Shown here piece by piece: positions 27,726 to 31,611 of a stretch of 34,749 bases of DNA (position 1 is the first letter of the stretch; every line of letters begins with the position of its first letter). This DNA comes from an uncultured Opitutia bacterium (lineage in GTDB: Bacteria; Verrucomicrobiota; Verrucomicrobiia; Opitutales; Opitutaceae): NCBI GenBank assembly GCA_903859715.1, contig CAIONS010000024.1:1-34749 (forward strand), in the 5' to 3' direction. The notes under the pieces were generated by a model, which saw nothing but the letters and a program-made list of their open reading frames with translations, was not told the DNA's origin and did not search any database. The position numbers were made by a program, and so were the translations under genes.

Positions 27726-28278
27726 AATCCGCGCGCAAATTTCGGGTCAGGACGCTGGCCCAGGCGCATGCCTTTGTGCTGGCGGCAAGTGCGCGATTTT
27801 CGCCGACAAGAAAGTGGATCGGCCGAACCTCTGGGATGTGACCGACATGCCGGGAAAGCAGCCGGGCGAGGCTGGATGGGGTAAAAGGGTCGGCGCGGTC
27901 TGGGGTTGGAAAAACCAGCTGCCCGCAGAGTACCCTGATGAGATTTTCTATGGCAAGGACGAGACGGGACGGGCGGTGCTCATGACGCTCGGGCACTTGG
28001 CGGAGGAGCATTACCCGAAGTTTCACCGACCCGTGGAAGAGTGCAGCCCGATGGCGCGGAAAATCCATGCCTTGGTCAAAGTCGAGCCCATGACCACAAC
28101 TGCGCTGCGGAAGGCCGTCGCGCAAAAGGACAAACTCCTGCGCGCGGCCTTCTCAAAGGCACTGATCGAGCTGCAGGTGACGCTGAACATCGTCCGCTCG
28201 AACGCCCCGGAGATTGAGACCGACACCTGGCTGCGCTTCGGCGAGCTGTACCCGTCGATTGGATCCGGCGCGAAGTAG
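27722..28278 (+). pseudogene. AlkZ-like/winged-helix protein gene broken by a frameshift
   Basis: Translation from the GTG at 27722 starts VKSARKFRVRTLAQAHAFVLAA and then loses sense (SARFSPTRKW) before a stop at 27839-27841. From about 27789 the neighbouring frame continues sensibly: CAIFADKKVDRPNLWDVTDMPGKQPGEAGWGKRVGAVWGWKNQLP, then a winged-helix-like tail (MTTTALRKAVAQKDKLLRAAFSKALIELQVTLNIVR) to 28278. Joining the two needs one extra base near 27780-27790, so a one-base deletion (or a sequencing error) is indicated. The product would be about 185 residues and resembles short proteins related to the AlkZ/YcaQ glycosylase winged-helix family. An internal ATG (27814) could still give 154 residues. 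The family call is from memory of sequence style and is moderate. The start overlaps the mazF stop, suggesting co-expression. Confidence 0.65.
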
Positions 28279-28355
28279 CGGCCAGTAGCAGCCGACGTAA
28301 GGAGGCTGGATTGGAATCGCGCAGGCGGAAGAGCCTCAAGCTGACTCTGAAGGGA

Positions 28356-28467
28356 TGGCCACAAAAAGGCGCAAGGGCATGGGGCTGCGAAGGAGTCGAC
28401 ATCGCGCTTATAAGCGCACGGGAGACTGGAGCCGGAGCCTTGGAATTTTTGTGCCTTTTTGTGGCCA
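28356..28467. repeat. palindromic repeat, family B, copy 1
   Basis: Outer arms of 19 bases (28356-28374, starting TGGCCACAAAAAGG; 28449-28467, ending TTTTTGTGGCCA) pair with a single mismatch that is a G-U in RNA. A central palindrome, GCGCTTATAAGCGC, lies at 28404-28417. It occupies the gap between the AlkZ-like pseudogene and the convergent esterase gene. The same plan recurs at 30761-30879. The element contains no gene. Confidence 0.88.
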
Positions 28468-28541
28468 AATGTCCTGGCCGGTATTTCCGAGGTGCCTCGA
28501 AACAGCCTCCTCACGTTGGCTGCTACAGCGGTCTTTTAAGC

Positions 28542-29273
28542 CTAGCCAAACAACGCCTTCAGTCCCGATGGAAACGTATCCGCCAGCGCGGTGTAATGAT
28601 CACGCTTCGGGAATTGCTCGGACGTGATCTGGAGGCCGGTGAACGGCTTGGCCGCGAGCTGGGCCTCGAGTAAAGCGAGGTCGCCGTGCATCGATTCCGA
28701 GTCCTTGCCGCCGACGCCGAGGTACAGTTGGGCGGGCAGGGCGGATTGATGCGCGCGCAGGCGTTTGGCTTGGTCGAGAATGGCGCGATTGTCCCACCAG
28801 ATCGAGGGTGCGCTGGCCAGATGGTGCGTGAAAAACGGCGTCTTCTGGAACAAGGCGTGGAGCACGAGCAGCGAACCCAGGGAATGTCCGGCGATACCGC
28901 GGGTTTTGGCGTGAACCGGATGGCGCCGCTCCAGTTCCGGCCAAAGCGTTGTCGTGAGGAATTTTAGGAACGCCTCCGCTCCGCCGCTCGAAGGTTCATC
29001 GGGATGAGGCGCGGGCGTGTAGTCGCGACCCCGTTGGTTGGTCCCACGGCCGTAGCCGGCGCCATAGCCGACGCCGACGAGCAGGAGCGGCGGCACCGCG
29101 CCCGCGGCGCGCACCGCGCGATAGCCTTTCACACCATAGCTGAACTGATCGTCCCCATCCATGAACAGCATCACCGGCCAAGGCCCCGGCTCTGTCTCAG
29201 GATCAGGCGCGCTGACGTAGATCCAATAGTCCGTGCCGGTTTCGGGCGACGGGAGCTGGAAGGTGGGCTTCAC
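28542..29273 (-). CDS. putative alpha/beta-hydrolase esterase
   Basis: A 243-residue alpha/beta hydrolase of the putative esterase (esterase D/IroE/Fes) group. The visible landmarks are VMLFMDGDDQF, LLLVGVGYGAGYGRGTNQRGRDYTPAP with its Arg-Asp-Tyr signature, and SSGGAEAFLKFLTTTLWPELERR. The nucleophile elbow GHSLGS has Ser131; the catalytic Asp candidate is in GVGGKDSES and the His in KRDHYTAL. There is no signal peptide, so it is cytoplasmic. Relatives hydrolyse S-formylglutathione, trilactone siderophores or short-chain esters; the actual substrate is open. It is the last gene of a minus-strand set with the CDGSH and DUF1272 genes, with gaps of 21 and 27 bases. Confidence 0.86.
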   Translation of the reverse strand: MKPTFQLPSPETGTDYWIYVSAPDPETEPGPWPVMLFMDGDDQFSYGVKGYRAVRAAGAVPPLLLVGVGYGAGYGRGTNQRGRDYTPAPHPDEPSSGGAEAFLKFLTTTLWPELERRHPVHAKTRGIAGHSLGSLLVLHALFQKTPFFTHHLASAPSIWWDNRAILDQAKRLRAHQSALPAQLYLGVGGKDSESMHGDLALLEAQLAAKPFTGLQITSEQFPKRDHYTALADTFPSGLKALFG

Positions 29274-29300
29274 AGGCGCTTCGCCGGGTCGCGCGCTTTC

Positions 29301-29549
29301 CTAGCGTGAGCCGCAGGGTTGCGACCGGAGCACGCGAAGGGTTGATGCGGGATTTTTCAGGAGCTGGGCAGCGGGACGGATGGGCCGCCGGACTAGCTCC
29401 CCGCCGCAATTAGGGCAGACAAAGCCGAGCTTGGTCGAAGCGCAGTCGAAACAGAATGTGCACTCGAAGGTGCAGATGTAAGCGTCCCTGGCCGACGGCG
29501 GAAGATCCCGGTCGCAGCATTCGCAATTGGGGCGAAGTTCGAAGGACAT
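29301..29549 (-). CDS. DUF1272 cysteine-rich protein
   Basis: An 82-residue protein that matches DUF1272 in full: the opening SFELRPNCECCDRDLPPSARDAYICTFECTFCFDC and the core CPNCGGELVRRPIRP are the family signature. Nine cysteines in the first 48 residues (three in CECC, four in CTFECTFCFDC, two in CPNC) imply one or two structural zinc sites. The function of the family is unknown. The C-terminal 25 residues beyond the signature are poorly conserved. It lies between the CDGSH-protein gene and the esterase gene, in the same direction and with short gaps. Confidence 0.88.
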   Translation of the reverse strand: MSFELRPNCECCDRDLPPSARDAYICTFECTFCFDCASTKLGFVCPNCGGELVRRPIRPAAQLLKNPASTLRVLRSQPCGSR

Positions 29550-29570
29550 GGGGAACGATGGGCCGCAGGC

Positions 29571-29807
29571 TCACACCGTCTTATGCGAACCGTCGCAGAA
29601 CGGGGCGTTCTTTGACTGCTTGCACGCACACCACGCCACGGTCTGGCGCTCAGTGAGCTCGGTCTTGCGCGGCGCGAAGCCGGTGCCCTTGTGGCTGCCA
29701 TCGCAAAATGGCTGGTTCTTCGAGTTGCCGCACGTGCACCACCAGTAGGTGCCGGGCGGCATTTCCTGAACGATGGGGGATCTTTGCGGAATATTGGGCG
29801 TGGGCAT
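29571..29807 (-). CDS. double-CDGSH iron-sulfur protein
   Basis: 78 residues from 29807. An earlier ATG at 29852 would add 15 residues lying in repeat-derived sequence. Two CDGSH zinc-finger-like [2Fe-2S] motifs are complete: WCTCGNSKNQPFCDGSH and WCACKQSKNAPFCDGSH, each with the three Cys and one His that ligate the cluster. Single-chain, double-CDGSH proteins occur widely in bacteria as small soluble electron-transfer or redox-sensing proteins. The short N-terminus has no targeting signal. It is the first gene of the CDGSH/DUF1272/esterase set; the family C palindromic repeat lies just upstream. Confidence 0.92.
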   Translation of the reverse strand: MPTPNIPQRSPIVQEMPPGTYWWCTCGNSKNQPFCDGSHKGTGFAPRKTELTERQTVAWCACKQSKNAPFCDGSHKTV

Positions 29808-29850
29808 GGAAGGGAGCGACAGGAGTTTGGAACGCGGATGATTAAGACCC

Positions 29851-29962
29851 AAACTTTCGATCCGTTTTACAGGAGGTAACGGAGGGAACGGAGGAGGAGA
29901 TTTTCTGTTCCAGGCCTTGCTCGGTTTCCTCCGTTACCTCCTGTAAAATGGATCGAAAGTTT
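29851..29962. repeat. palindromic repeat, family C
   Basis: The arms of 35 bases at 29851-29885 (starting AAACTTTCGATCCGTTTTAC) and 29928-29962 are inverted copies differing at one position. The arms carry the unit AGGAGGTAACGGAGG, whose relatives continue imperfectly into the 42-base loop. The element sits between the yebC stop and the CDGSH gene start on the minus strand. A transcript from yebC would form a very stable hairpin here. Confidence 0.92.
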
Positions 29963-29974
29963 AGGATCGGAATT

Positions 29975-30706
29975 TTATTTGACCGCGGCCCACACCCGCT
30001 GGACGTCGTCGTGGTCCTCAAGGGCCTGCAGGAATTCGCCGACGTCGCCACGCGCGGCGTCGTCCAGCTCGGGAAACATCTTCGCGAGGTAGCCGATTTC
30101 ACTCGTGACGACCGTCCAGCCGTTCTTCGTCAGCCAGACCGAGACGGCGTGGACGGAATGGCGCTCGGTAATGAAGCGGGCCCCGGCACGCTCGGCCGGG
30201 ATATCGTCGTTCTGTTCGTGGGTGAGGACCTCGAAATCATTGGCGCCGGCCTCGATGGCGGCCGCTTCCCGGTCCACGGCCATATCGGCATGGTGCGCCT
30301 CGACGAGGCCGACATGCTCAAAGAGAAACTTGTTGCTGCCGGCCTGGCCGAGGATGCCTCGCTTGAAGAGCTGGCGGATTTCCGGGGCGATGCGCTGGTG
30401 GTTGTCGGTGTAGGCCTCGACGATGACCGGCACCTTGTGCGGGGCGTAGCCCTCGAAGACGACGTGCTCCAGCGCGGTCTTGTCGCCGCCCACGCCGGAG
30501 CCCTTGGCGATAGCCCGCTCGATGACGTCGCGCGTCACGCTGGCCTTCCGGGCCTTTTCGACCGCGGCGAAGAGCCGGGCATTGGCCGCGAGGTCACCGC
30601 CGCCGAGCTTGGCGGCGACGGTCATTTCCTTGACGAGTTTGCCGACCGTCTGGCCCTTCTTCAGGTTGACGATCGCGCGTTTGGCGTGGAGCCACTGGCG
30701 TCCCAT
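29975..30706 (-). CDS. yebC: YebC/PmpR-family regulator or translation factor
   Basis: 243 residues from 30706, where the protein starts MGRQWLHAKRAI as in homologues; the 22-residue extension to 30772 reaches into a repeat. Diagnostic stretches are GKLVKEMTVAAKLGG, NARLFAAVEKARKASVTRDVIERAIAKG, EGYAPHKVPVIVEAYTDN, RIAPEIRQLFKRGILGQAGSNKFLFEHVG and a closing ALEDHDDVQRVWA. The family has been described as DNA-binding transcriptional regulators (PmpR, quorum sensing) and more recently as ribosome-associated factors that ease translation of proline stretches; the sequence does not decide. This is notable given the nearby efp gene. It is on the minus strand; a family B repeat lies upstream and a family C repeat downstream. 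Confidence 0.92.
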   Translation of the reverse strand: MGRQWLHAKRAIVNLKKGQTVGKLVKEMTVAAKLGGGDLAANARLFAAVEKARKASVTRDVIERAIAKGSGVGGDKTALEHVVFEGYAPHKVPVIVEAYTDNHQRIAPEIRQLFKRGILGQAGSNKFLFEHVGLVEAHHADMAVDREAAAIEAGANDFEVLTHEQNDDIPAERAGARFITERHSVHAVSVWLTKNGWTVVTSEIGYLAKMFPELDDAARGDVGEFLQALEDHDDVQRVWAAVK

Positions 30707-30760
30707 AAGACCGGCCAGTGTGAAGGCCGCCACGGCCGCGGCAATGCCGAACATGCGGAG

Positions 30761-30879
30761 GGTTGGCCACAAAGAGGCACAAGGGCTCCAAGGCTTCGTC
30801 TCGTCTCTCCCGCGCGCCTATAGGCGCAAGGGTGGCTCGTTCGCAGTCCCCGAGCCTTTGTACCTCTTTGTGGTCAACC
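30761..30879. repeat. palindromic repeat, family B, copy 2
   Basis: The 28-base arms (30761-30788, starting GGTTGGCCACAAAGAGGCAC; 30852-30879) match at 25 of 28 positions, with all three differences G-U compatible. The central palindrome GCGCCTATAGGCGC is at 30814-30827. The plan is the same as the copy at 28356-28467; the core differs by a compensatory T-A to C-G exchange. It lies between the divergent yebC and carbonic anhydrase genes, so it must sit in or near their promoters. Confidence 0.9.
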
Positions 30880-30960
30880 CGGCTTGGAATTAACCATGGC
30901 GGCTCGGTGATGGAGTTCGGGGTGGACAATCGTGGCGGGGTTCGGAGCATGCCGGTGCGT

Positions 30961-31611
30961 ATGGACTCCCTGACTCACTTGTTTGATCAGAACAAAGCCT
31001 GGGCGGACGCCATCCGGCGGCGGGATCCGCAGTTTTTCGAGAAACTCTCGCTCCAGCAGAGCCCCGAGTATCTGTGGATCGGCTGTTCCGACAGCCGCGT
31101 GCCGGCGAACGAGATCATTGGCCTGCTGCCGGGCGAGGTCTTCGTGCATCGCAATATTGCGAATGTCGTCGTCCACACCGACCTGAACTGTCTTTCCGTG
31201 ATCCAGTTCGCCGTCGATGTCCTGAAAGTGAAGCACATCATGGTGGTGGGGCATTATGGCTGCGGCGGCGTCCGCGCCGTGTTGCGCTGCGAACGGGTCG
31301 GCCTCGCTGACAACTGGCTGCGGCACGTGCAGGACGTGAAGGACAAGCACGACGCTTGCCTCTGTACCGAGCCCGACGAGGGCGTGCGCAGCGCGCGGCT
31401 CTGCGAACTGAACGTCATCGAGCAGTCGGCTAATGTCTGGCAGACCACAATCGTTCAGGATGCTTGGGCGCGCGGGCAGGAGCTGACGATTCACGGCTGG
31501 ATCTACGGCCTGCGCGATGGCCGGTTGCACGACCTCAAATGCTCGGGCAGCAGCCTGAAGGAAGCCTCGGCGAATCACGACGCGGCGATCGCCGCGGCGA
31601 CGAAGTCGTAA
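30961..31611 (+). CDS. can: beta-class carbonic anhydrase
   Basis: 216 residues from 30961 (E. coli Can 220); MDSLTHLFDQNKAW aligns with the E. coli start. An ATG at 30949 is also possible; starts further upstream run into the palindromic repeat. It interconverts CO2 and bicarbonate in the cytoplasm. The zinc ligands are seen in WIGCSDSRVPANE (Cys and the Asp-Arg dyad) and GHYGCGGVRAVL (His and Cys). FVHRNIANVVVHTDLNCLSVIQFAVDVLKVKHIMVVGH, NWLRHVQDVKDKH, CELNVIEQSANVWQT and IHGWIYGLRDG complete the family. The N-terminal residues suit the usual dimer arm. Downstream are a family D repeat and a terminator shared with efp. Confidence 0.94.
   Translation: MDSLTHLFDQNKAWADAIRRRDPQFFEKLSLQQSPEYLWIGCSDSRVPANEIIGLLPGEVFVHRNIANVVVHTDLNCLSVIQFAVDVLKVKHIMVVGHYGCGGVRAVLRCERVGLADNWLRHVQDVKDKHDACLCTEPDEGVRSARLCELNVIEQSANVWQTTIVQDAWARGQELTIHGWIYGLRDGRLHDLKCSGSSLKEASANHDAAIAAATKS

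Follow-up and report, generated by a model that had tools for sequence, protein, structure and literature searches.

The two palindromic elements at 28356–28467 (minus strand, copy 1) and 30760–30880 (plus strand, copy 2) of the window, the whole 34,749-nt stretch of DNA analysed here, belong to a repeat family with at least 42 full copies in the genome of an uncultured Opitutia bacterium (G000). The copies are dispersed and intergenic, are present or absent between species, occupy orthologous slots in either orientation and are nested in other palindromes beyond permuted flanks. On balance, we favour an old MITE-like, non-autonomous palindromic family that tends to sit in palindromes, is flipped or swapped via its arms and has its tip repaired by template switching. 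We infer that the element moves.

A dispersed intergenic palindrome family

Copy 1 is inverted relative to the family consensus and has 19-nt arms (28356–28374 and 28449–28467) that are 95% complementary. Copy 2, in consensus orientation, has 29-nt arms (30760–30788 and 30852–30880) that are 90% complementary, and lies between two divergent genes, a yebC-like gene on the minus strand and a carbonic anhydrase gene on the plus strand. Whichever strand was taken, both copies folded more strongly than dinucleotide-shuffled sequence (z −6.6 to −9.8). Across the window, the arms gave four matches against 0.32 expected, and none of 100 shuffles contained four. These results confirmed the plan shared by the two palindromes that a sequence-only reading had described. 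The T-A to C-G exchange between their cores was also as that reading gave it: the strandless core of copy 1, GCGCTTATAAGCGC (28404–28417), is of the minority T-A type, and that of copy 2, GCGCCTATAGGCGC (30814–30827), is of the majority C-G type. The sequence between arm and core had appeared hardly conserved because the two copies are opposite in orientation; once copy 1 was reversed, its minus strand gave a 76% match to copy 2 across query positions 9–126 of 131.

The element is about 115 bp long. Its inverted arms (TTGGCCACAAARAGGCRCAA...) enclose an imperfect stem, which ends in a 5-bp hairpin tip whose loop is TATA-like. The earlier description knew only two copies and named further genome copies as the first thing to look for; a profile search of G000 gave 50 matches, from which 42 full copies were aligned after omission of five duplicates of the same DNA and three matches scoring below 40 (the truncated L050, plus L044 and L047, whose interiors differ). 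Recent copies identical to one another were not found. None of 43 copies fell inside a gene predicted by a home-made gene caller. The 42 copies that could be classified lay between tandem (21), convergent (12) or divergent (9) genes, and their orientation relative to the tandem genes was even (10:11). Ten of 57 related genomes contained a match at E ≤ 0.001, and presence at genus level was patchy (7 of 12 genomes, G000 included).

Within literature coverage that left out subscription papers, a combined-term search with CCACAGAG returned no paper, the arm and related strings gave only a chance match to a primer, and searches on MITEs, REPs, nesting and ERIC (titles and abstract starts) returned no description of this family.

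Orthologous slots and nesting

The slots of 30 of 43 copies were located in the fetched part of the sister genome G005, the other 13 slots not being located there. Ten slots contained the element in the same orientation, ten contained it inverted and ten were without it, so that the interior was reversed at half of the slots shared by the two sister species. The slot of copy 2 holds the element in G000 and G005, only 11–18 bp in G008, G010 and G011, and the same arms around a different interior in G002, G004 and G009.

The clearest inversion was L043, whose inverted orthologue scored 59 against 48 for the best of 24 paralogues; at L016, the arms are identical in both species and the interior is reversed. 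Among the nine inverted orthologues first tested, two (L017 and L043) were nearer the G000 copy than all G005 paralogues, two (L013 and L019) were outscored by one paralogue each, and L020, L029, L036 and L016 were no closer than paralogues. Replacement by another copy therefore fits as well as in-place inversion for several slots, and could explain most inverted slots other than L043. The arms in inverted pairs favoured neither the swapped nor the unswapped state (45 versus 42 differences of 340).

Element-free slots mostly contained remnants (L026, L063/L003) or other palindromes (copy 1 slot, L037), and at L018 the element was lost together with its enclosing palindrome; L025 and L002 were scored as absent without a reading of the sequence. 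Short gaps that had diverged also occurred among the element-free slots, and the eight slots read as sequence showed no clean target-site duplication.

In G000, the only genome in this permutation analysis, 10 of 41 copies lay within another palindrome, against a permuted mean of 2.8, and none of 5000 permutations was as high. Copies nested above the 99th percentile of mismatched flanks numbered only 3 of 38 in G000, 2 of 24 in G005, 1 of 13 in G009, 1 of 15 in G007, 1 of 44 in a multi-phylum set and none of 15 in G003. Copy 1 is itself enclosed by a GTAG-type palindrome, with a left arm (GTAGCAGCCGACGTAAGGAGGCTG) at 28285–28308 on the plus strand and a right arm at 28503–28526 on the minus strand. 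Complementarity of the 15 nt just outside the element arms was not above that of mismatched flanks; the outer arms are therefore not locus-specific pairs. If confirmed widely, the nesting would suggest an insertion mechanism with a preference for hairpin loops.

The favoured reading would accommodate these observations as follows. The arms would be the ends recognised by a mobiliser; active master copies would retain matched arms, and resident copies would decay independently. Insertion would prefer loops, single-stranded or extruded, of palindromes already in place, and afterwards the interior might be flipped or exchanged with another copy, via template switching or recombination between arms.

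An ordinary MITE moved by a transposase, whose terminal repeats co-evolve with that one enzyme and so acquire the paired arm changes between species, and whose core is a symmetric protein-binding site, is possible but doubtful. The size, the terminal inverted repeats (19–29 nt in the window copies), the non-coding sequence and the intergenic placement all fit. The same GCCACAAARAGGC arms occur in Acidobacteria, Planctomycetota, Verrucomicrobia and a Geobacter bin, and are the best-kept part across phyla in a search that demanded exact arms. However, inspection by eye of 98 arm matches in G000 (up to two mismatches; draft genome of 71 contigs) recognised no autonomous element of 0.6–4 kb with the same arms, no mobiliser of the element was found, and the inspected slots lacked a clean target duplication. 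This reading alone also leaves inversion and nesting unexplained, and a symmetric site does not explain the double changes seen in a minority of copies (2 of 42). As described in part in PMC3733652, bacterial MITEs and ERIC/RUP-type repeats share with the element a length of 70–300 bp, terminal inverted repeats of 15–30 bp, non-coding sequence, intergenic location and tens of dispersed copies. For the element, by contrast, we found neither a cognate insertion sequence nor a target duplication; it forms a full-length hairpin with a conserved tip, carries its interior in both orientations at orthologous slots and often lies inside other palindromes. Slightly more doubtful still is a wider proposal, namely palindromic mobile DNA of a multi-phylum class that would travel in the form of a single-stranded hairpin and integrate into palindrome loops in Russian-doll fashion; its members would carry nearly any interior, and template switching during replication would both flip and proof-read them in hairpin form.

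Pairing at the tip and in the stem

Pair 5-10 of the 14-base core was C-G in 145 copies and T-A in 28, with two mismatches; independence would predict 125.8 standard pairs, and 173 were observed. Its neighbour in the loop, pair 6-9, showed no covariation (128 observed, 128.5 expected). The counts came from 226 matches, reduced to 194 by removal of 32 duplicates; the 175 copies with at most three core differences from the consensus were entered, a cut-off biased towards the consensus core. In G000, the two T-A cores are mutually distant (ranks 32 and 22 of 42). Independent core exchanges are few, because G007 and G016 each represent one subfamily.

Over the whole hairpin in G000 (44 pairs, 42 copies), 85.2% of cells were paired against 85.8% after shuffling, 486 of 500 shuffles reached the observed pairing or more, and the covariation score was 0.105 against 0.113 in shuffles. 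Most arm differences therefore reflect independent decay. The view that they are mostly G-U compatible did not extend to the family, whose most variable arm pair was G-T in 17 copies, but A-C in 9, A-T in 7 and G-C in 7 (of 40 copies having a letter on each side). Between species, the consensuses differ by paired changes in the arms. The RNAalifold structure behind covariance model R1 comprises 20 pairs. Some copies have a perfectly palindromic internal loop in place of the asymmetric one; L040 is a clear single case, and its orthologue keeps the usual asymmetric loop.

The sequence-only reading had proposed that a fold is kept by selection or copied as a hairpin. The two-sided changes at pair 5-10 bear this out at the tip, and the arms and stem within the genome do not; copying as a hairpin gains from the palindromised loops. 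Covariation across the genome copies, the check then suggested, thus gave for the whole hairpin the shuffle-level pairing that had been named as counting against the proposal, and across genomes a signal at the core pair.

Template switching at the tip would convert one-sided mutations to two-sided ones and yield the C-G/T-A core exchange, making a conserved RNA unnecessary; selection on the tip would yield the same two-sided pattern. Template switching between inverted repeats is described in PMC8604942 as homogenising arms and inverting spacers, and in PMC8794818 as producing multibase compensatory changes. The element would resemble these cases in arm homogenisation, spacer inversion and multibase compensatory changes, although they concern yeast genes and RNA genes and the substrate here is a family of repeats dispersed in bacteria.

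A conserved structured RNA, or an RNA processing or stability hairpin with pairs held by selection, is improbable. It is consistent with the strong folding of both window copies, the two-sided changes at the core pair, the paired changes between species consensuses and, in nine same-orientation orthologue pairs, somewhat better conservation of arms and interior (0.91, 0.87, 0.86) than of 40-nt flanks (0.82, 0.78). We dropped it as the main reading because pairing within the genome is at shuffle level and orientation is random, both relative to tandem genes and between sister species. G-T and A-C mismatches both build up, which also argues against it, as does Rfam: the 14 matches at E ≤ 5 within 28200–31000 included none at gathering score and none overlapping either copy. 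These sub-threshold matches were to miRNA models and fell mostly on a separate palindrome near 29.9 kb.

Two-sided 'compensatory' changes are commonly read as proof that a folded RNA is functional. This family shows them at the tip and between species, and not over the stem within a genome; it offers a natural test bed for separating selection on structure from template-switch mutation.

Y1 transposases and terminators

We regard a REP/REPIN-type repeat moved by a Y1 transposase (RAYT or TIRYT) as marginally less probable than a structured RNA. Y1_Tnp matches were found in all seven element-bearing genomes of the genus against two of five element-free ones, and copy 1 lies within a GTAG-type palindrome; Opitutus terrae, likewise a member of Verrucomicrobia, is highly enriched in GTAG repeats according to PMC3733652. 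The element resembles GTAG REPs and REPINs with RAYT in being palindromic, intergenic and dispersed. It differs from them in that its aligned ends lack the GTAG/CGTC tag, its unit is far longer and its arms are not hairpins themselves. A RAYT mobiliser had been suggested earlier, and Y1 transposase genes are indeed present, but none of 19 Y1 loci was flanked by element arms (±1.5 kb where the contig allows); at one locus, L230, an arm-like pair lies about 1.1 kb away, to one side.

The 335-aa Y1 gene is bounded by perfect terminal repeats of its own, 28–30 bp long and with GGGGTCAG, at the three loci inspected. They contain a GGGGWSAS-like motif, a likeness to the TIRYT-associated TIR families described in PMC3733652, which are also repeated inverted-repeat families in Y1-bearing genomes. 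The sequence of these repeats differs from the element arms at the three loci, and a TIRYT TIR family was rejected as the identity of the element.

A bidirectional transcription terminator kept between genes is very improbable, since 21 copies are in tandem and 9 in divergent placements and neither window copy contains a site (GC-rich hairpin followed by a T run; the region has 3, shuffles 2.9), even though convergent genes flank 12 of the 42 classified copies, compared with 30 of the 167 gaps of 100–500 bp in G005.

Two window copies and their family

Both palindromes described by the sequence-only reading were found, at 28356-28467 (copy 1, minus strand) and 30760-30880 (copy 2, plus strand). 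They folded far above shuffled sequences, and the element arms matched the window 4 times versus 0.32 expected. The reported core exchange was present in both copies. The element is not fully symmetric and therefore has an orientation. The interior had been called hardly conserved because the two copies lie in opposite orientations: copy 1 is inverted relative to copy 2, and the interiors match once read in the same sense.

The supposed pair proved to be part of a family. A sequence search of the window's own genome (3,181,295 bases, 71 contigs), with 40 of 51 first-look candidates scored, gave at least 82 element matches on both strands, and a pattern search with up to 2 mismatches in the arms gave 98 matches versus 10 with the reversed control. 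Searching the retrieved loci with a profile identified 50 matches, of which 42 were retained in the own-genome alignment. The consensus is about 115 bp long, with arms TTGGCCACAAARAGGCRCAA and a core that is mostly GCGCCTATAGGCGC. According to a home-made gene caller, 43 copies lay in tandem (21), convergent (12), divergent (9) or unclassified (1) gene contexts, and orientation in the tandem gene pairs was 10:11. Gene context and orientation gave no support for a directional RNA or terminator; a terminator scan likewise gave no support for a terminator role of the element.

Covariation in the hairpin

We examined the consensus hairpin (44 pairs) in the 42 own-genome sequences against shuffles. 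The compensatory change proposed for the folded element did not extend over the whole hairpin: paired cells were 85.2% versus 85.8% in shuffles, the covariation score was 0.105 versus 0.113, and 13 versus 11.9 pairs had a two-sided change. These values are near those of the shuffles, indicating that the own-genome copies decay independently over the hairpin. Two pairs were exceptions: arm pair 18-128, with 2 G-C copies and 36 standard pairs versus 32.8 expected, and core pair 72-77, with 2 T-A copies and 42 versus 38.2. The two T-A copies are not closely related to one another (ranks 32 and 22 of 42).

Across 175 copies from all sources, the two-sided core change was confirmed, with 145 C-G, 28 T-A, 1 C-A and 1 A-A. 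The pair inward of it, at the loop edge, was standard in 128 copies versus 128.5 expected, and the outward pair was C-G in 172, G-C in 2 and mismatched in 1. Because T-A cores make up all of one relative (G007, 16 of 16 cores called) and most of another (G016, 6 of 8), independent core exchanges are few. The consensuses of seven genomes differed two-sidedly at arm pairs 7-111, 9-109, 14-104 and 17-101 and at core pair 58-63; the more distant G016 showed further two-sided differences. The core exchange is a genuine sign that the tip behaves as a hairpin, but most of the structure is a decaying repeat.

Reversal and nesting

About 1.17 Mb of the sister species' genome (G005) was compared. Both flanks were placed there for 30 of the 43 copies: 10 had the element in the same orientation, 10 reversed and 10 lacked it; the slots of the remaining 13 were not located in the compared part. 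Among the first 18 pairs, 9 of each kind, the orthologue beat every sister-genome paralogue in 5 same-orientation and 2 reversed pairs. Mean orthologue scores were 53.7 (same orientation) versus a paralogue mean of 39.8, and 44.2 (reversed) versus 38.3. Over 340 arm positions of the reversed pairs, neither state, swapped or unswapped, was preferred (45 versus 42 differences). Stated most cautiously, interiors were turned over through the arms, some by in-place inversion and others possibly by exchange with a different copy. Locus L043 is the clearest case of in-place reversal. At L016, the arms are identical in both species and the interior is reversed, being no closer than paralogues. Among the 30 commonest loop types, an asymmetric loop had turned palindromic at L040 in the own genome and at L114 and L293 in the sister genome; the sister orthologue of L040 keeps the asymmetric loop.

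Copy 2, with a yebC-like gene on one side and a carbonic anhydrase gene on the other, is shared with the sister species. Its slot is 11-18 bp long in three relatives (G008, G010, G011) and holds the same arms with another interior in three others (G002, G004, G009). The copy 1 slot of the sister genome contains an unrelated palindrome.

Copy 1 itself lies within an outer GTAG-type palindrome (arms 28285-28308 and 28503-28526). Complementary flanks scoring at least 22 enclosed 10 of 41 own-genome copies; re-pairing the left with the right flanks gave 2.8 on average, and 0 of 5000 re-pairings reached 10. At a score of at least 30, the numbers were 8 versus 1.5. The enclosing arms of the ten were CACGAAGGGCACGAAG-type in 7 and GTAG-type in 3. 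An intact palindrome lay entirely in one flank at 1 of the 41 copies. Nesting is shown for the own genome only; a stricter measure gave a weak signal in other genomes and none in G003. The best label for the element is a MITE-like palindromic repeat whose turnover is unusual. Nesting, interiors reversed at shared slots and covariation confined to the tip each have known precedents; what is new is their occurrence together.

The GTAG-type palindrome also occurs without interruption, with 19-28 bp spacers, in the sister genome and at L046. A separate long palindrome of another family lies at 29848-29965 (46-nt arms, 91% complementary, TTTTACAGGAGGTAACGGAGG...CCTCCGTTACCTCCTGTAAAA); at the L026 and L012 slots, palindromes of its type enclose or adjoin other ones. 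In the sister genome, the L037 slot (L347) has a palindrome with CACGAAA-type arms beside a leftover right arm of the element, as if nesting runs the other way too.

Distribution and Y1 transposase genes

With a 117-nt consensus query and scoring limited to 15 candidates per genome, matches at E ≤ 0.001 were found in 10 of 57 relatives, own genome counted: 7 of 12 genomes of the genus and 3 of another genus of the family. Y1_Tnp matches occurred in 9 of the 12 genus genomes (7 of 7 with the element, 2 of 5 without it), a small though suggestive difference. A RAYT mobiliser had been envisaged; the Y1 loci were not flanked by the element. At three loci, a long Y1 gene has its own perfect terminal repeats of 28-30 nt with GGGGTCAG; those at L042:6337-7344 (own genome, contig C47) are 29 nt, and those of the G005 and G009 loci are similar. 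The L042 gene is TIRYT-like; GGGGTCAG is close to the GGGGWSAS motif given for TIRYT genes in PMC3733652.

Of 387 genomes sampled from the phylum, 6 carried the exact two-arm pattern, and the control pattern had no match among the matches listed. Across 84,980 species genomes, the pattern gave at least 103 stretches; the 80 titled ones included Pyrinomonadaceae and other Acidobacteria, Planctomycetota, Verrucomicrobia, Thermoanaerobaculales and a Geobacter bin. A profile match to the interior was found in only 49 entries of this multi-phylum set, among the matches listed; in others the arms surround different sequence. In Acidobacteria and Planctomycetota (L115-L217), the arms are often prolonged by further units of about 10 bp (GGCACAAAAAGCACAAAA), so that A-tracts recur with roughly helical spacing.
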